From Fibrobacterota bacterium (GTDB taxonomy: Bacteria; Fibrobacterota; Fibrobacteria; UBA11236), in assembly GCA_028287505.1 (NCBI GenBank), contig JAQBPN010000003.1:62001-126000 (forward strand): a stretch of DNA of 64,000 nt, given 5' to 3'. The notes under the pieces were generated by a model. It made no database searches. It worked only from the letters and a program-made list of their open reading frames with translations, and had not been told where the DNA came from. Positions 5,400 to 64,000 of the stretch are shown one piece after another (the stretch's first letter is position 1; every line of letters begins with the position of its first letter). Both the position numbers and the translations under genes were made by a program.

Positions 5400-5714
5400 T
5401 CAGAAACAGTTGGTGGCGAGATCGCTCTTGGAGGCTTCGCCGTTTTCGGGAGCCTGATCGGAGCCATGCGCGGACGCGGTGGGATTTCCGGCGGCGTCCT
5501 TTACGACCCCGGCATCCTTTTCAGGACCCGAGGCGGCGGCGGGGCAAAGTCCCTGGGCCGCCATGGCGCGCTGGGCCAAAACCAGTTCCGGTTTGTCGAC
5601 CGGGAGCACGAGGCTGTCCAGACTGCTTTCCCGGTGGGCGCTGTGTTCAGGGAAAAGCTTGGCCTGTCCGAAGACTGCGAAGGCTACCAGGATTAATTTG
5701 ACGACGATTAGCAT
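5400..5714 (-). CDS. Small exported protein of unknown function
   Basis: 104 residues: a short hydrophobic N-terminus (MLIVVKLILVAFAVFG) acting as signal peptide or anchor, then a polar, Ala/Ser/Asp-rich tail with two cysteines (GLCPAAAS and the terminal TNCF). I recognise no family. The start at 5714 was chosen because the hydrophobic segment begins there; an in-frame start lies six codons upstream. It is convergent with the AlkD gene. Confidence 0.45.
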   Translation of the reverse strand: MLIVVKLILVAFAVFGQAKLFPEHSAHRESSLDSLVLPVDKPELVLAQRAMAAQGLCPAAASGPEKDAGVVKDAAGNPTASAHGSDQAPENGEASKSDLATNCF

Positions 5715-6511
5715 GTCCGTTCCAATGACCAAGGTTTGTTCGAGGGTTCCCTCTGCATAGGGAATCTAACCTTGGGAGGTAAATGGATTCTCTCCGCCTC
5801 GTAACGGAATGTAACAACGGAATAATAGTTGTCAAAGATCAATTCTTTCCGGATGGATCGCTTGGAAACCCCGTGGCTGTAGGCTCGGAGCTGTGCCTGG
5901 GTATGCGCACTCTTTGGTGACGTTGCGAAGCGGATGGGATTCCGGACATTGTCGCATCGGCTTCCAAGTGTCATGGAGGTCACGCTCGCCCCGGCATCCA
6001 TCAGGGTTTCTTTTCGGTTACCGATCGATTTACGGGTGGAAACCCAAAAAACCGCCATAGTTTCCACCGTGAGGCGGGGTTCCGGGGGGAGCCCTGGCTC
6101 CCAACCGGAAAAGTCTCTTTTCCGGCTCCGGGAATCCAGGTCTATTTGGGGGAGCAAAGGTCTTTTCCGGTAAAAGCCCAAACCTCCGGTTAGGGTGCAA
6201 CGGGTGGTGAATACCCATTGTATGGTCGACGTCCGAATTTGGGCAATTTGGGATGGTTGGCGTAGGATTTCCAGCCTGGAGACGGATGTCGGCGCAACAG
6301 GGTAAACTGTCCGCCACCCCTGAAAGGGTTTATAATAAGAAGGCATGGGCAACAGCGGGTTCCGCCTCCATGCCGGCAGTCCGGTCCCACCGGTCTTCCC
6401 GGCATGTTCCAGCGGCCCGGGCGGCAACTCCACCCTGGGCGCTTCAGCTTACCTGTCACTTTCAAGTTACCTCAATACGCTCGGCCCATGCATCCGAAAG
6501 GGGAGACCCAT
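5715..6511. other. Long leader/intergenic region before the acyl-CoA operon
   Basis: Nearly 800 bases without a supported gene. Open frames here lack family matches and ribosome sites. The visible elements are a strong -10 box at 6331-6336 and, at 6498-6505, the AAAGGGGAG ribosome site of the first operon gene. I looked for a cobalamin riboswitch, given the B12 enzyme at the end of the operon, and did not see its conserved boxes. Confidence 0.4.
6331..6336 (+). promoter_or_regulatory. Candidate -10 element for the acyl-CoA operon
   Basis: A perfect TATAAT about 175 bases before the first gene. The -35 position (near 6308) is poor, so an activator may be needed if this is used. The implied 5' leader is long (~170 nt). 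Confidence 0.4.
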
Positions 6512-56732: not shown

Positions 56733-57596
56733 TCAGACGTTCAGGTGGAAGAGGAGCATGGGAGACAGATCTCCGGAGTTCAGGCCCATGCCCATTTTGA
56801 AGTCGTGAAATAGTCCGGCTTTTGATGCTCGTCCGGTTTCCGGTTTGGTCTGCCGTCCCAGGTGCAATCTGGGAACCAGATAGCCAATCGCGGACCCCGC
56901 GATGGCGCCGGCCAGGACATCGGACGGAAAATGCTTTCCAGAGAAGACCCGCAATGCTCCCACGCCGGCCGCGGTTCCCATGGCGCCGCTCCACATCCAG
57001 GGTATCCAAGGCGAATCCGGATGATGGACTTGAAATGTATAAGCCGTGAACACGGCCGCGGCGAATGCGCCGGTCGTATGCTCGGAAAAGAAACTGCTGC
57101 GGGCATCGCCGGATTCGCGCTCCGAGAGGGGCGCATTGGAGGTGAAGGCCAATGGTCTGGGGTGAAGCCGAGAGGTCTTTGAGTAGAGACTGACGGCGGA
57201 TGCATACGCCACCACCTCTCCGTATAGGACAAGGTCGGTCCAGGCTTCCCTTATCGACTCCTGGCGGCGATGAAGGTCGAACCCGGTAAGGGCCAAAGGG
57301 GCGAGGCCATCGGCAAGGATCAAGGCATCGCTGATACCGGAGAGAGGCTTGGAATAGAAGCCCAAGGCCCAGCGGTCGTAGGCGGGAATATCCTCCCGGC
57401 GAAGCCCCGAGGGATCGAAAGGCCGGCTTGCGATGCGGCGCTCCATGAGGAATCCGGTGCCTGCGGCCGTCAGGCCGACTCCCAGGATTGGATAGTCCCA
57501 GGCCGGATCGAATTGATAGCGGTCTTCCCGGGCGAAAAGGGTTCCGCAAAGGACGAACGCAACCGATATGGTGGTGGAAACCCGGATCCGCATCAT
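56733..57596 (-). CDS. PAP2-family phosphatase, exported
   Basis: 287 residues with an N-terminal signal segment (VSTTISVAFVLCGTLFA). The three PAP2 signatures are present in modified form: KTSRLHPRPLAF (K-x6-RP-like), SSFFSEHTTGAFA (PSGH-like, with the catalytic His) and RVFSGKHFPSDVLAGAIAG (SR-x5-H-x3-D-like, with His and Asp). The C-terminal helices are hydrophobic. It would dephosphorylate lipid phosphates such as undecaprenyl pyrophosphate or phosphatidic acid in the periplasm. Confidence 0.82.
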   Translation of the reverse strand: MMRIRVSTTISVAFVLCGTLFAREDRYQFDPAWDYPILGVGLTAAGTGFLMERRIASRPFDPSGLRREDIPAYDRWALGFYSKPLSGISDALILADGLAPLALTGFDLHRRQESIREAWTDLVLYGEVVAYASAVSLYSKTSRLHPRPLAFTSNAPLSERESGDARSSFFSEHTTGAFAAAVFTAYTFQVHHPDSPWIPWMWSGAMGTAAGVGALRVFSGKHFPSDVLAGAIAGSAIGYLVPRLHLGRQTKPETGRASKAGLFHDFKMGMGLNSGDLSPMLLFHLNV

Positions 57597-57614: not shown

Positions 57615-58067
57615 TTACTCCTGTTCGACGAACTCCCCGTTCTGGCGAAAGGTCGCTTCATGCTTCTTGTTTTTCTCCTTGAAGGCCAATTCATAGGTGA
57701 CCGAACCATCGGCTTTGGTCTGCTTTTCCGATCGGCTGATTTTCGCATCGGGGTATTTTGCCTTGAAGGCCGATAGCGCTTCTTGGGAAACGGAATCGGT
57801 GGGAACGATCTGCTCGGTCAGAAGAATCGAACCGGTGGTATCGATATCCAACTCGACTTTCCCATCGGCCTTGGAATCGAGTTTGACTTCGAATTGGACT
57901 TTCCCGGAATCGACTTCCCGCTTGCACGCGGAAACCTTGGAATCGGGGTAGGCCTTAAGGGCGGCCGCGGAAACGGGTTCCGGGCATTTCGTCTTCGCAT
58001 GCGCTTGCGCCGTCATCAGCATGGCGGCCGCAATGGATAGTTTTGAAACGATTTTCCAGTTTTCCAT
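57615..58067 (-). CDS. Periplasmic PepSY-like protein
   Basis: 150 residues. A signal peptide (KLSIAAAMLMTAQAHA) is followed by two related halves of ~60 residues. Each has the 'A-L-x-A-x-x-x-K-Y-P-D-A/S-K-I/V' pattern (SAAALKAYPDSKVSACK; LSAFKAKYPDAKISRSEK) and then beta strands (KVQFEVKLDS; SVTYELAFKE), as in PepSY-like/BLIP-fold proteins. Such proteins are often controlled by two-component systems, which fits the TCS locus 1.8 kb away. AGAGGAAAT precedes the ATG. Confidence 0.72.
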   Translation of the reverse strand: MENWKIVSKLSIAAAMLMTAQAHAKTKCPEPVSAAALKAYPDSKVSACKREVDSGKVQFEVKLDSKADGKVELDIDTTGSILLTEQIVPTDSVSQEALSAFKAKYPDAKISRSEKQTKADGSVTYELAFKEKNKKHEATFRQNGEFVEQE

Positions 58068-58125: not shown

Positions 58126-59166
58126 TCAAGTCGATGGAGCGATATCCAGAACGGTGAAGGTGTTTTGCTTCACGGGCGGGCGGGCCTTGGGATTGTCCGC
58201 GCTAGGGGCGGGAGCGGGGCCGAACTCGGCGGTGGAAAGAAAAATGTGATGCGTCTTGGGATCCAGGGTTATGGTCTTGGCTCCCTTCTGCGTGGGAAGG
58301 GTTTCCAGAACCGCGTAATGGTCCATGTCTTTCTGCTGCACAACGGTGAGACTGCCTTCGCCATTGGACGCGAAAATCCGTTTGCTGGCCGGATCAAAAG
58401 CGACTCCGTCCACGCCCTCGCCGATGGGGACGGTGGCCACCACTTTTCCCGTTGCGGCGTCCATGACGACCAACAACTTGTTTTCGCATACGCTGAACAG
58501 GCGCCGGGTGGCCGGATCCATGGCCAAGCCGCTGGGGCTTTCCCCCGGGGCCATCGGCCAGGTTTTGGAAACCTTGTTGGTCTTGGCATCGATGATTGCA
58601 ACGGCGCTTTTGTCCTCGAGATTCAGATAGATATTCCCTTTTCCGTCCGCGGCGCCCACCTCCGGTTTTCCGCCCAAATCGATGGTCGCAACCACCTTGT
58701 CCGTAGCGGGGTCGATGACGGTCGCATTGCCGCTTTTGCCGTTGAAGGTGAAGATATGCCTGGAGAAGGGATCATAGAGGATGGCGTCCGGATTGATGCC
58801 CGTGACCCTCACCTTGCCGAGGGTGGCCAAGGTCTTGAGATCGAAGACGGTCACGGAGGTATCTTTGCCGTTACTGATGTACCCTTTGCCGAGCGTTTCC
58901 GCGATGGCGATGCCGTGCACGCCCTTGGTATCAGGAATGGTTCCGACCAGTTTTCCCGTTTTTTCATCCATGACCTGGGTTTGCGTTCCATGGGAAATGA
59001 ACACCCTGCCGGCGGCCGGGTCGGCCTCCAGAAAATCCCAGCGATCGTCGCCGGGAAGATGGAACCGGTTCGCGATCTTGTATTGCGAAGGCGTTCCGGC
59101 CGTCGCGGCCATCGCCCCCAGGGACAAAAAGATTGCCCATGCCCATTTGTTTCCAGTATGCATCAT
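58126..59166 (-). CDS. YncE-family exported beta-propeller protein
   Basis: 346 residues. A signal peptide (WAWAIFLSLGAMAATA) precedes seven-bladed propeller repeats of the YVTN/YncE type: HGIAIAETLGKGYISNGKDTSVTVFDLKT, NATVIDPATDKVVATIDLGGKP, AVAIIDAKTNKVSKTW, LLVVMDAATGKVVATVPIGEG and ITLDPKTHHIFLS. Its role is not known in detail; in E. coli yncE lies next to the TonB receptor yncD, and here too a TonB receptor lies in the same locus. It belongs to the minus-strand genes between the DoxX-like gene and the PepSY-like gene. Confidence 0.87.
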   Translation of the reverse strand: MMHTGNKWAWAIFLSLGAMAATAGTPSQYKIANRFHLPGDDRWDFLEADPAAGRVFISHGTQTQVMDEKTGKLVGTIPDTKGVHGIAIAETLGKGYISNGKDTSVTVFDLKTLATLGKVRVTGINPDAILYDPFSRHIFTFNGKSGNATVIDPATDKVVATIDLGGKPEVGAADGKGNIYLNLEDKSAVAIIDAKTNKVSKTWPMAPGESPSGLAMDPATRRLFSVCENKLLVVMDAATGKVVATVPIGEGVDGVAFDPASKRIFASNGEGSLTVVQQKDMDHYAVLETLPTQKGAKTITLDPKTHHIFLSTAEFGPAPAPSADNPKARPPVKQNTFTVLDIAPST

Positions 59167-59240: not shown

Positions 59241-59792
59241 TCATCGGCCGATAATCTTCGCCTTTCCGAATCGGCCCCACGCTACGAAAGTTGAAAGCAT
59301 GCCGAGAAAGATGATAGGCGGTAAACTGCTTGTTTCGTTTCGGGAAATGTGGAAGATCACCGCGGACCCCATGATTAAGGATAGACAAGCCGCCGCTTGG
59401 GCGGACAAAGCCGGGTGGATCCGTGAAACGGAGGGGAGAGTAAGTCCGAGCGCTGCCAATACCTCCGAGGTCCCGATGAAGCGGACCATGGCCTCCGGCA
59501 TACTGAAAACCCAAGGCATCCATTCGAATAAATCGCGGATGGGTTGCGTAACCTTCAGGTAGCCCACATACCCGAAAACCGATGCGAGAATGAATTGTGA
59601 AATCCAAAGGAAAACATGCAATACCCGGACAGGAATCTTTGCTTCGGGGCCGGACGCTTCGTGGTTTTTGGTTGGATCAATTATCGTGGCTCTCCCGAAT
59701 CGCGCTATCCGCCAACCGGCATGGATGGACCAGGTCAATTTCCGAAATTGAGAAAATGTAACGAGGCGTTGCGCGGCTTTTTTTGTAAACAA
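59241..59792 (-). CDS. DoxX-like membrane protein, start uncertain
   Basis: The last ~130 residues form four helices of the DoxX/MauE type: FLWISQFILASVFGYVGYLKV, FSMPEAMVRFIGTSEVLAALGLTLP, ALSAQAAACLSLIMGSAVIFHI and IIFLGMLSTFVAWG. The boundary given begins at a TTG inside the regulator-binding repeat and has no ribosome site, so the true start is probably further in; no ATG exists in the first 100 codons, and TTG or a rarer codon must be used. It is divergent from the response regulator gene and likely first of the set with yncE and the PepSY-like gene. Confidence 0.6.
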   Translation of the reverse strand: MFTKKAAQRLVTFSQFRKLTWSIHAGWRIARFGRATIIDPTKNHEASGPEAKIPVRVLHVFLWISQFILASVFGYVGYLKVTQPIRDLFEWMPWVFSMPEAMVRFIGTSEVLAALGLTLPSVSRIHPALSAQAAACLSLIMGSAVIFHISRNETSSLPPIIFLGMLSTFVAWGRFGKAKIIGR

Positions 59793-59801
59793 TATGTAAA
59801 C
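59784..59801 (-). promoter_or_regulatory. Tandem response-regulator site, copy 1
   Basis: On the minus strand GTTTACA-TATT-GTTTACA: two 7-base half-sites with an 11-base period, one DNA turn, the layout OmpR/PhoB-type regulators bind. It lies between the DoxX-like gene and the regulator gene. The same arrangement recurs at 61935-61952. Confidence 0.65.
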
Positions 59802-59808
59802 GGCAACC

Positions 59809-59824
59809 GAATCAAATGTGATTC
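59809..59824 (+). promoter_or_regulatory. GAATCA-AATG-TGATTC palindrome before the regulator gene
   Basis: A perfect 6+6 palindrome eight bases from the tandem site and about 45 bases before the regulator start. It could be an operator for another factor or a leader hairpin. Confidence 0.4.
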
Positions 59825-59867
59825 AGTCATTGCGTATGTAATTTCTCATCATGACGGAGCGAATGGG

Positions 59868-60575
59868 TTGAAGTCCGAATCACGGCCTGTCCTGCTGATT
59901 ATGGACGATGATGAAGAGTTGAACGCCCTCCTCAAGGTATACTTGTCGCCGTTCGGGTGGGAGATCCTTTCAGCGACCCGTCCCGAGGACGGCCTCAACC
60001 TGATTGCGGACATCTGCCCGACCCTGGTTATCCTTGATGTGATGCTGCCGGGCAAAGATGGATTCGAGATATGCAGCGAGATCCGGACCAGAAGTCGTAT
60101 CCCCATCATCATGTTGACGGCAAGGGGCGATGTCAAAGACAGGGTCAGGGGCTTGCAACTTGGGGCCGATGATTATCTGCCCAAACCGTTCGAGCCCACC
60201 GAACTGGTGGCCCGCATCCAATCCGTACTCCGGCGCATCGAGTTTCCCGCCAAAACCGGGACGAACCGAATCGGTGAATTGACCTTGAACGGCTCCTCCA
60301 AGCAGACATTTCTGGGAGGAAAACCTTTGGACCTGACAGGGATGGAGTTCGCCGTACTTGAATTGCTGGTGGAGAATGCGGGAACCATCCTGAGCCGCGA
60401 CACCATCGCCTTGCGTACCAAAGGAGTGGAGTGGGAGGCCATGAACAGGACCATTGACGTATTGATAGGACGGCTCAGGGGGAAATTGGGGGACAATCCG
60501 CACAATCCCCGTTACATCAAAACCGTGTGGGGAGAAGGCTATCTCTTCATCAAGGATGCCGGCCGGGATGGCTGA
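59868..60575 (+). CDS. OmpR/PhoB-family response regulator
   Basis: 235 residues. Receiver domain: IMDDDEELNALL, phospho-Asp in LVILDVMLPGKDGFE, Thr in IIMLTARG, Lys in DDYLPKPFEP. C-terminal winged helix: LTGMEFAVLELLVENAGTILSRDTI, then RTIDVLIGRLRGKLGDNP and YIKTVWGEGYLF. The TTG at 59868 (MKSESRPVLLI) has GGAG eight bases upstream and gives a normal N-terminus; the open frame further upstream runs through the operator region. The kinase gene starts inside its end. Tandem GTTTACA sites on both sides of the pair are the obvious targets (inference). Confidence 0.92.
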   Translation: MKSESRPVLLIMDDDEELNALLKVYLSPFGWEILSATRPEDGLNLIADICPTLVILDVMLPGKDGFEICSEIRTRSRIPIIMLTARGDVKDRVRGLQLGADDYLPKPFEPTELVARIQSVLRRIEFPAKTGTNRIGELTLNGSSKQTFLGGKPLDLTGMEFAVLELLVENAGTILSRDTIALRTKGVEWEAMNRTIDVLIGRLRGKLGDNPHNPRYIKTVWGEGYLFIKDAGRDG

Positions 60576-61926
60576 AGAGATCGCCAAGACCTTGACCTTC
60601 ACGCGTTCGATATTCCTCAAGTTATTGGGGATCTACCTGGCATCAAGCGTTCTCATCGTGCTGATGATAGCGGGTTTCCTCGAGTTCATCGTGGAGGACA
60701 GCCACCACGCGAACTCGGAAAAATCCCGCGCGGTATTCGCCGGATTCCTGGCCGCGAAAATGGATCCGGGAACGGACTTGGCCGCCGGGCGGAAGCTTTC
60801 CGAGGAATGGGGATTGGATATCGCCATGGAAGGGCCGGGGCCATCCTGGTCCACTATACCAGGACTTCCCGTTTTCGACCGGCTGGAATCACTCTCGACC
60901 CCGATTCCCGGTTCGGATGGCGTCAGGATCGGGCGGTTCCGGCATCATCATCTGGCCGTGGTCCAAAAAGAAGGCCGCCGAATCGCATTCATTTTCGGAA
61001 AGGAACCGAACCATGAAAAATGGATCGAATTCATCCCCTTTTTGATCCTTTCCATCGTGCTGGTGCTCAGCGCCAGTTATCTGCTTATCCGGAGGTTGTT
61101 CCAGCCCCTGAAAGAGTTGCACTCCGGCTTTTCGGAAGCGCGCCAGGGAAACCTCAATGCCCGGGTGGAGATCCGGCGCACCGACGAGCTGGGCGAATTG
61201 AGCCAATCCTTCAACTCGATGCTGACCGGAATCCGCGAAGTGATGCGTTCCAAGGAGCAACTGCTTCTCGACGTGAGCCACGAGCTTCGATCCCCATTGA
61301 CGCGAATCAAGGTGTCCCTTGAAATAGAAGGGGAAGACTCGAAGGATATCGCGCGGAAGAATGTCCGCGAGCTGGAAAAAATGATCCACGAATTGCTGGA
61401 ATCCGCGCGCATGGACAGTCCGCGCGGCATACTCAATCTGGAACCCGTCGAAATGGGGTCGTTGGTCGCGCAGATCCTGGCCGAGTATGAATTCGCCTCT
61501 CCCGGAATCCGCTTTCTGTCCCCGGATGCCGGATATGAAATGGATCTGGATCGGGAGCGCATCGCCATTGTCATCCGGAACGTTTTGGAAAATGCCTTGA
61601 AGTATTCCGGCCATCAAAGCAAAAAGGTGGAAGTCTCCTTGCAGGAATCGATAAACGGAGACGAATCCCAAGTGGTCCTGGCCTTCCGCGATTTCGGCCC
61701 GGGAATCCCCCAGTCGGACCTGGCGGCGATATTCGAACCCTTTTACAGGGTGGATAAATCCCGGGGAAGGATTTCAGGCGGATATGGATTGGGGTTGAGT
61801 CTGTGCCGGAAAATCATGGTTGCGCATGGAGGCGGAATCGACGTCTCCAGCGTTCCGGGCGAAGGCACCACCATGAGGATAGTCTTCAACGGAAAATACG
61901 GATCCGGTCCCCTTGAGCATACGTGA
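60568..61926 (+). CDS. Sensor histidine kinase, CpxA/EnvZ-like
   Basis: 452 residues. Two membrane helices (LKLLGIYLASSVLIVLMIAGFLEF, ~14-37; WIEFIPFLILSIVLVLSASYLL, ~150-172) enclose a ~110-residue periplasmic sensor. A HAMP domain (RRLFQPLKELHSGFSEA ... DELGELSQSFNSML), HisKA (LLLDVSHELRSPLTRIKV) and HATPase (VIRNVLENALKYSGH; FRDFGPGIPQSD; GGYGLGLSLCRKI) follow. ATG 60568 overlaps the regulator stop; ATG 60556 is also possible. Partner of the regulator just upstream. Confidence 0.93.
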   Translation: MAEEIAKTLTFTRSIFLKLLGIYLASSVLIVLMIAGFLEFIVEDSHHANSEKSRAVFAGFLAAKMDPGTDLAAGRKLSEEWGLDIAMEGPGPSWSTIPGLPVFDRLESLSTPIPGSDGVRIGRFRHHHLAVVQKEGRRIAFIFGKEPNHEKWIEFIPFLILSIVLVLSASYLLIRRLFQPLKELHSGFSEARQGNLNARVEIRRTDELGELSQSFNSMLTGIREVMRSKEQLLLDVSHELRSPLTRIKVSLEIEGEDSKDIARKNVRELEKMIHELLESARMDSPRGILNLEPVEMGSLVAQILAEYEFASPGIRFLSPDAGYEMDLDRERIAIVIRNVLENALKYSGHQSKKVEVSLQESINGDESQVVLAFRDFGPGIPQSDLAAIFEPFYRVDKSRGRISGGYGLGLSLCRKIMVAHGGGIDVSSVPGEGTTMRIVFNGKYGSGPLEHT

Positions 61927-61934
61927 AAAGCCGG

Positions 61935-61952
61935 GTTTACAATTGGTTTACA
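61935..61952 (+). promoter_or_regulatory. Tandem response-regulator site, copy 2
   Basis: GTTTACA-ATTG-GTTTACA, with the same half-site, spacing and 11-base period as copy 1, here pointing toward the TonB receptor gene 110 bases downstream. Confidence 0.65.
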
Positions 61953-62060
61953 AAATAGGCGAAGGGGGATCTTGCTCCCATTGTAGATTGTTAGCGTCAT
62001 CGATTTCCGGGTGGGGAGGCTACTTTTGCCTGCGAGCATGCTGCGGATATCTCCAATAAG

Positions 62061-64000
62061 ATGAAGCGCGCCTACCGGGTGTTTTTCATTTTCATGATTT
62101 CGGCTCCATTCGCGGTGTCGGCTCAAGACCCTGCCGCAGTCGATACCCTGGCTTCCCGCCGCACCCCGGCCGACCCGGCAAAGACGGCGCCGCCGGACAC
62201 CTCCGGACGATTGCATCGCGTGGTTTTCAAAGGCATCGCGCCCGCCGGCGCGCAGGTCAGTATCGATACCGCGCGCGGATTTGCCGATACCGCGGGCAGA
62301 TGGAGCCTGACCGTCGCTTTGGACAGCGCCGCCCGGGCCACGGGCCAATTCGATCTGTGTCTGGAGCAAAGCGGAAACAAGGCCTGTACCCTGGTGCAAC
62401 CGAAGGGGTTCGATACTTTGGAACTCGCTCCCTTGCGGTTTACGGAAAAGCTGGTGGTGGATACGGTAATCGTTCCCCCCGATAGTTTGGCCGGCGATTC
62501 GCTCCCAGCCCCCAAGGCGAAACTGCTCGATCAAGGCAAGGCAAGCGATGGCCGCACGGTGGTGGTGCGCGGCCGCCGCAAGGCCAAGATATTGGGACAA
62601 GAGCATGTGACCGTACAACAGATCCGGCGTCTCCCCGGCCTGGCCGAGCCCGATGTCATCCGGGCCGTCCAGGCCCTGCCCGGCGTGGTCGCCTCCTCGG
62701 ACTTCTCCACCAAGATGTACGTCCGGGGCAGCGCCAGCGATCAAAACCTGGTGCTTTACGATAATGCGGTGGTGTATTCGCCGGCCCATTTCGGGGGATT
62801 GTTCAGCACCTTTCTGGCGGACGCAGTGGGCGGCCTGGATTTCTACAAAGGCGGTTTCGATCCCTACTGGGGCGATCGCCTGGCGTCGGTATTGACCGTG
62901 CATTCAAAGGACGGGGGATCCACCTTCGATTCCACCAGCCGTCTGTCCGGGACTTGGCCCGGCGACAGCGCCAAGGTGACGGGAGTGGTGCGCAACACCA
63001 CTTTCTCGGGTAGCCTCGAGACCGATGGACGCATGGGCGATTGGTCCTGGTCGCTTGCCGGACGGCGGACCTGGATCGATCAGGCTTTGAATCTCGCCAA
63101 CCGCCTCAGCCTGATCAATTTCACCCTCAGCTACTTCTTCTACGATTGGCAGGGGGATCTGGCCTGGTCCCATGGACGCGATTCCGTGCGCCTTTCCGCC
63201 TATCAGGGCCGCGACGATTTGAACATGGTCCCGCTGGTCCTGAATTGGGGAAACCAGGACTTTCCGTTGAATGTCCATCTGCAAATGACGCCGGACCTCG
63301 CCTATGAAGGCACGGTCGCCTGGTCCGGATTCGATCAGGTCTTCTCCTTGAGCGACGTCCTCCGATTCGAAAATTCCATCCGGACCATCAACACCCGCCA
63401 GGGACTCTTGTATACCGGGCTGCCGGGCCATGCCGTCGCCGGAGGATACGAATTCAACTATTTCTGGGTGGATTTCCTGCAAGGGAACAAAATCCGGAAC
63501 AGTTACCTGGAGGACAAGTACTCCGTCGATCTGCACGCGGCCTACCTGCAGGACAGGTGGACGCTCAATCCCAGGCATACGATATCTTACGGGTTACGGG
63601 TCTACAACTATCCGTCCCTCCAGCATCCGGCGGGAACCGGGCTATCGGAAGTGGTCAAGGAGGGGATAGCGTCCTGGACCTGGGATCCCCGCCTCACCTA
63701 TACCTATCGGCCGGCAAAGGATTGGCGGTACGACGCGCATGTGGGGTACTACCACCAATATCTGGCGTCCCTGCGCTTTACGGACCAGGAGACGCCGAAC
63801 GAATTCTGGTACGCCGTGAAAGGGAACATGAAACCCACCAGCTCATTGCTCGGCGCCGTGGGCGTGGAGAAGGAGAATCTCACCAAACTGGGTCTGACAG
63901 CCTCCTGGCAGGGTTATTACAAGGATGTGCGCGCGATACCGCTCTTCTATCCCAATCAGACCACCACCCAAATCGACAGCTTGCAGGCGCAGGGCGGGGA
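62061..64000 (+). CDS. TonB-dependent outer-membrane receptor, 3' partial
   Basis: At least 646 residues; the frame is open at the window edge. A signal peptide (MKRAYRVFFIFMISAPFAVSA) is followed by a ~150-residue N-terminal region with a short carboxypeptidase-regulatory-like part, then the plug: VVVRGRRKAK, EPDVIRAVQALPGVVASSDF, MYVRGSASDQNLVLYDNAVVY, GGFDPYWGDRLASVLTV. After ~residue 300 come barrel strands with alternating aromatic residues. Ligand unknown. The regulator site at 61935-61952 suggests control by the adjacent two-component system. The ATG has no strong ribosome site. Confidence 0.88.
   Translation, partial: MKRAYRVFFIFMISAPFAVSAQDPAAVDTLASRRTPADPAKTAPPDTSGRLHRVVFKGIAPAGAQVSIDTARGFADTAGRWSLTVALDSAARATGQFDLCLEQSGNKACTLVQPKGFDTLELAPLRFTEKLVVDTVIVPPDSLAGDSLPAPKAKLLDQGKASDGRTVVVRGRRKAKILGQEHVTVQQIRRLPGLAEPDVIRAVQALPGVVASSDFSTKMYVRGSASDQNLVLYDNAVVYSPAHFGGLFSTFLADAVGGLDFYKGGFDPYWGDRLASVLTVHSKDGGSTFDSTSRLSGTWPGDSAKVTGVVRNTTFSGSLETDGRMGDWSWSLAGRRTWIDQALNLANRLSLINFTLSYFFYDWQGDLAWSHGRDSVRLSAYQGRDDLNMVPLVLNWGNQDFPLNVHLQMTPDLAYEGTVAWSGFDQVFSLSDVLRFENSIRTINTRQGLLYTGLPGHAVAGGYEFNYFWVDFLQGNKIRNSYLEDKYSVDLHAAYLQDRWTLNPRHTISYGLRVYNYPSLQHPAGTGLSEVVKEGIASWTWDPRLTYTYRPAKDWRYDAHVGYYHQYLASLRFTDQETPNEFWYAVKGNMKPTSSLLGAVGVEKENLTKLGLTASWQGYYKDVRAIPLFYPNQTTTQIDSLQAQGG

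Follow-up and report, generated by a model that had tools for sequence, protein, structure and literature searches.

Tandem boxes around a two-component pair

At its right end the window, the whole 64,000-nt stretch analysed here, carries a response regulator and a sensor histidine kinase, followed on the same strand by a TonB-dependent receptor gene. Leftward, on the opposite strand, lie genes for a DoxX-like protein, a YncE-like β-propeller, a PepSY-domain protein and a PAP2-superfamily phosphatase (Table 1). The preliminary description of the locus had assigned a sensor kinase and an OmpR/PhoB-type regulator, and Pfam domains confirmed both: the regulator combines a receiver with a winged-helix Trans_reg_C domain and adjoins a membrane histidine kinase. 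The regulator most likely starts at TTG 59868 and not at the mechanical ORF start 59616; for the kinase, ATG 60568, which overlaps the end of the regulator, is likelier than 60556; and the true start of the DoxX-like gene must lie downstream of site 1. The periplasmic sensor domain was modelled as an α/β fold (pLDDT 81.5) that found no significant match in the PDB, and the whole-kinase model found mainly matches of the catalytic core. A six-codon frame (ATG...TGA, 59851-59871, plus strand) overlaps the TTG start of the regulator (TTGA), and the same 17-nt arrangement is present in the congener G002 (JANYDA01, a Fibrobacteria MAG), hinting at a leader peptide or translational coupling.

Table 1. 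Features of the locus, of the third box elsewhere in the source genome and of the corresponding region in G002. Positions are those of the window unless a locus is named.
Feature	Position	Strand	Remarks
PAP2-superfamily phosphatase gene	56733..57596	-	PAP2 61.3 bits; 18 bp behind the PepSY gene
PepSY-domain protein gene	57615..58067	-	PepSY 25.8 bits; regulon membership doubtful
YncE-like beta-propeller gene	58126..59166	-	Regulon membership doubtful
DoxX-like gene (mechanical ORF)	59241..59792	-	DoxX_2 63.5 bits; regulon membership doubtful
Site 1, GTTTACA-TATT-GTTTACA	59784..59801	-	Between DoxX gene and response regulator; oriented away from the regulator
Palindrome GAATCAAATGTGATTC	59809..59824	.	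GAATCA-NATN-TGATTC, beside site 1
Response regulator, OmpR/PhoB type, 235 aa	59868..60575	+	Response_reg (PF00072) 89.4 bits, Trans_reg_C (PF00486) 80.0 bits, both far above cut-off
Sensor histidine kinase (mechanical ORF)	60556..61926	+	HAMP, HisKA and HATPase_c above cut-off
Site 2, GTTTACA-ATTG-GTTTACA	61935..61952	+	Between kinase and TonB-dependent receptor; oriented to the receptor
-10-like hexamer TAGATT	61984..61989	+	31 nt past the end of site 2
TonB-dependent receptor	62061..64000	+	Extends beyond the window; weak Plug match; 86% ortholog in G002
Third box, exact	L006:5803-5820	-	Contig C47 of the source genome
dlt-like set in G002	L025:9069-13438		ACP, DltB-like MBOAT, weakly DltD-like protein, DltA-like ligase; starts 131 bp from site 1

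Identical GTTTACA-N4-GTTTACA sites had been described at both flanks of the pair. Both proved exact, with the same half-sites and unlike N4 spacers (TATT vs ATTG), and the arrangement as direct repeats with a 4-base gap and an 11-bp period, typical of OmpR/PhoB-type sites, was borne out. The GTTTACA heptamer occurs five times in the 64-kb window, four of them inside sites 1 and 2. Taken alone, a loose scan that tolerates up to three mismatches finds no significant excess in the window (2 boxes found vs a mean of 0.85 expected). A whole-genome exact scan, however, returned only 3 boxes in 6.07 Mb, with 0.001-0.0025 expected by chance under first- to third-order Markov models fitted to the window sequence, and a reversed-pattern control gave 0 matches. 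The concern that the repeat might be common at random places in the genome was thus dispelled. GTTTACA repeats with any other gap from 0 to 12 were absent from the six genomes of the genus. A chance repeat was rejected on the genome-wide count, the Markov expectation and the conservation of the sites in a second species.

The third box is followed by a PHP-glycosyltransferase gene and then an MMPL transporter gene, and a -10-like hexamer lies exactly 31 bp past it, as at site 2. This operon is a well-supported predicted target of the system. The nearest counterpart of its glycosyltransferase in G002 is only a 49% homolog. The opposite flank of the box (L006:5964-8106, plus strand) encodes a CxxCH-motif protein, a DUF4266 lipoprotein ending in GGGCGC and a DUF3570 protein. 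The palindrome GAATCA-NATN-TGATTC occurs exactly only twice in the 6.07 Mb, beside site 1 and at the third site (L006:5835-5850), in both cases no more than 15 bp from a GTTTACA box; a second regulator may act there.

Conservation of the sites and promoter geometry

One of the five congeners, G002, has orthologs of the pair, with 82% identity for the regulator and 75% for the kinase. The counterpart of site 1 stands in the same place and is exact (L025:8920-8937), that of site 2 carries one mismatch (L025:6728-6745), and G002 holds no further GTTTACA box within one mismatch. GTTTACA boxes were thus found only in the two genomes that have the pair, in line with the expectation that they belong to this sensor-regulator system. 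Because the exact system occurs in two species only, its footprints rest on two genomes. A kinase-pattern search for the system in other phyla returned only G002, of the same phylum, and distant kinases.

The receptor and the genes that follow it are conserved in G002. Outside the window, the order behind the receptor is a lipoprotein-like gene, ExbB, an ExbD-like gene and TonB, with MotA_ExbB and TonB_C matches; the ExbD-like call was made from position and the G002 counterpart, not from a family search. G001 provides a natural control: it has a 72% receptor ortholog without an adjoining pair, and no box was found at this ortholog even at 3 mismatches.

A consensus sigma-70 scan of the locus gave matches no more frequent than in shuffles. 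The pattern box + 28 nt + TTGTARNTT, searched at a tolerance of up to three mismatches in the six genomes of the genus, returned exactly three matches, all with 0 mismatches: site 2, the corresponding site in G002 and the third site. The same 31-bp distance to a -10-like hexamer recurs at 20 promoters that carry a related box, GTTACA-N4-GTTACA, associated across the phylum with a paralogous family of OmpR-type regulators. Over 23 boxes of both kinds, the -10-like hexamer at offset 31 reached a mean score of 5.21 vs a maximum of -0.55 in 2000 shuffles, and with one promoter per group the score was 4.62 vs a shuffle maximum of 1.87, the -10 weights being approximate values from general knowledge of sigma-70 promoters. 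These promoters were gathered by box and not by hexamer; the 31-nt spacing had first been noticed on site 2 and the third site. Such a common spacing is strong evidence that the boxes with a hexamer at +31 are activator sites. The TonB receptor operon with its ExbB/ExbD/TonB genes is accordingly spaced and is a well-supported predicted target through site 2, whose box very probably activates the outer-membrane receptor genes beside it.

Known systems and a paralogous envelope system

By arrangement, the nearest known system is PeuRS-peuA-tonB2 of Vibrio parahaemolyticus, in which a CpxAR-like pair lies directly upstream of a TonB-dependent receptor followed by TonB-system genes, and a CpxR-box-like repeat precedes the receptor gene peuA (PMC4141801). 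PfeRS-PfeA of Pseudomonas aeruginosa likewise has the pair upstream of the receptor, and in the window and in G002 the pair adjoins a receptor with a box before it. Enterobactin is the signal for PeuRS and PfeRS, and Fur additionally controls the peuRS and peuA operons. Unlike in those systems, boxes lie on both sides of the window pair, and no ligand or Fur site is established for the window locus.

The boxes resemble those of several named families, none of which the pair joins by curated cut-offs. Read on the reverse complement, TGTAAAC-N4-TGTAAAC contains GTAAA-N6-GTAAA, so that all three exact boxes fit the CpxR consensus GTAAA-(N)4-8-GTAAA, and the window box agrees with the CpxR site GTAAACCTAATGTAAA at P. 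aeruginosa mexA (PMC5063474). The regulator shares 40% identity with E. coli CpxR. It reaches only 169 of the 341 bits set as cut-off for CpxR, and the kinase scores 160.5/486 bits against CpxA and 181.7/800 against Legionella CpxA. None of the neighbours of the window pair is a CpxP/Spy-type LTXXQ gene; in the genus, such a gene (PF07813, 27.9 bits) adjoins the paralogous pair instead. The WalR/VicR box of Firmicutes, TGTWAH-N5-TGTWAH with an 11-bp period (PMC4168254), is matched exactly by TGTAAA-N5-TGTAAA in the window, yet YycF (160.8/340 bits) and WalK (171.9/725 bits) fall far below their cut-offs and nothing at the locus suggests an essential cell-wall regulon. The best-scoring models for the window regulator, RpaB (217 bits) and OmpR (209 bits), also remain below cut-off (330 and 331, respectively). 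The cyanobacterial RpaB site HLR1, (G/T)TTACAWWNN(G/T)TTACAWW (PMC11633204), is close to the GTTACA-N4-GTTACA of the paralog; the window box differs in its longer half-site and its period of 11 instead of 10. Membership of the paralogs in the CpxRA, OmpR, RpaB or WalRK families was ruled out in the same way.

The paralogous regulator, which adjoins the LTXXQ gene, shares about 56% identity with the window regulator, and the two group together: in a tree, the window regulator falls with the paralogs of the phylum (support 88/96), the E. coli branches being long and the inner order mostly unresolved. GTTACA-N4-GTTACA lies upstream of the paralogous regulator in five genomes of the genus (G000-G004); in G005, where the regulator copy is cut by a contig end, no exact copy of this box was found. 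In family f10, from another class, two GTTACA-N4-GTTACA boxes bracket a homologous pair followed by TolC (OEP), HlyD and AcrB genes. They are the sole exact copies in four of five genomes, and in the fifth the second box carries one mismatch. The f10 loci (L116, L117, L118, L119 and L120) also carry a GTTA resembling a third half-site, about 22 bp past the second one. From the related box, the common 31-bp spacing and the bracketed f10 pair, the window pair appears to be a derived paralog within an envelope system that spans the phylum, set apart by its longer half-site and its period of 11 bp.

Proposed regulon and alternative readings

We hold it probable that the pair is an OmpR/PhoB-type system, derived from this paralogous family, that binds the GTTTACA repeats and activates promoters at +31, its targets being the receptor operon, the glycosyltransferase/MMPL operon and, through site 1, most likely its own operon. 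We infer binding and activation, together with the direction in which site 1 acts and the kind of signal, from the computed presence, rarity, conservation, co-occurrence, spacing and paralogy of these elements. The membrane kinase would phosphorylate the adjoining regulator, which would bind GTTTACA direct repeats in tandem at a spacing of one helical turn (11 bp) and, when phosphorylated, activate promoters that have their -10 hexamer exactly 31 bp past the box. Through site 2 it would thereby switch on the operon of the TonB-dependent receptor, which has its own ExbB/ExbD/TonB energiser, and through the third site that of the PHP-glycosyltransferase and MMPL-type transporter. Site 1 would control the operon of the regulator and kinase, either alone or together with the leftward genes, and the signal would be an envelope or periplasmic condition or a ligand.

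The preliminary description had instead proposed a single compact uptake/export regulon, with site 1 driving the DoxX, YncE and PepSY genes and site 2 the receptor; a wider form of this reading would take in the PAP2 gene. Site 1 is oriented towards DoxX, the four leftward genes run in the same direction with short gaps, and a periplasmic function would fit the PepSY and propeller proteins. In G002, however, the dlt-like operon replaces the DoxX/YncE/PepSY genes left of site 1, and YncE is on a different contig, where neither DoxX nor PepSY nor a box accompanies it. Throughout G001-G003 the YncE orthologs are found elsewhere, without DoxX or PepSY, one of them adjoining PAP2, and no GTTTACA box was found at them, so that a conserved leftward regulon is unsupported by these gene neighbourhoods. 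Outward of site 1, moreover, there is no -10-like hexamer at +31 in either species. We therefore consider the compact regulon rather doubtful. Its receptor half is well supported, with a conserved site 2 and a -10-like hexamer at the distance common to the 20 related-box promoters; its DoxX/YncE/PepSY half is unsupported, and the ExbB/ExbD/TonB genes, the third site and the PAP2 gene had not been listed. Inward of site 1, both species conserve TGTAATTTCTC just ahead of the start of the regulator; its distance from the box is 35 nt in one species and about double in the other. Since site 1 keeps its place beside the regulator whereas the gene to its left differs, autoregulation is the simpler explanation and would be at least as likely a role for this site; control in both directions is possible. 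CpxR has been reported to act regardless of box orientation (PMC5063474).

The boxes might also be read by the paralogous regulator, or by both paralogs, the window pair not being the main reader. The recognition helices are nearly alike, with few differences (NRSIDVLISRLRQKL in the window regulator vs NRTIDVLIGRLRGKL in the paralog), so that the paralogous regulator might also bind GTTTACA boxes, and the 31-bp spacing to the -10 is common to both kinds of box. All congeners have the paralog family, yet GTTTACA boxes occur only where the window pair does, and the paralog's own promoters carry GTTACA-N4-GTTACA instead; we regard this reading as unlikely. Most improbable is an origin without any regulator, the repeats being chance or -35 elements (TTTACA) of ordinary promoters. 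Although TTTACA resembles a -35 hexamer and the loose window scan was not significant, this would leave the genome-wide rarity, the conservation in a second species and the constant 31-bp distance to the -10 unaccounted for. We know of no -35/-10 pair with a 31-bp separation.

The likely history is a duplication of the envelope system with its GTTACA boxes of 10-bp period, after which the box diverged to GTTTACA and 11 bp without any change in the distance to the -10. Tentatively, this change of box (GTTACA to GTTTACA, period 10 to 11 bp, 31 bp kept) may have insulated the duplicate from its sister as it gained a new regulon, the TonB receptor and glycosyltransferase/MMPL operons. Insulation of the two paralogs from each other, which we infer, would, if true, be a compact natural instance of paralogs kept apart by their DNA sites, and the paralog pair with its two related boxes offers a clean test of how regulators gain separate DNA targets. 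More generally, the locus adds a clearly defined new example of a well-known type of control system, and a non-exhaustive literature search found no published regulon of a two-component system in this phylum. In many uncultured genomes, regulons can be annotated with the box found across the phylum and its constant 31-bp spacing to the -10, and the boxes, spacing rule and targets are well enough defined to be settled directly by experiment.

Two further boxes of the paralog type were observed. One, GTTACATTCCGTTACG, with one mismatch, lies within the window at 5799-5814 (minus strand) with TAGATT at +31; it is conserved in G002, a box with the same core occurs in G003, and it points to a short ORF (5400-5732, minus strand) that has no Pfam match and may be a target of the paralogous envelope regulator. 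The other, in the region L137:1501-2590 (minus strand), has TATTTT at +31 and lies upstream of a gene for a SHOCT-like, pentapeptide-containing protein; with a matching box in G002, this gene is a candidate further member of the ancestral regulon.
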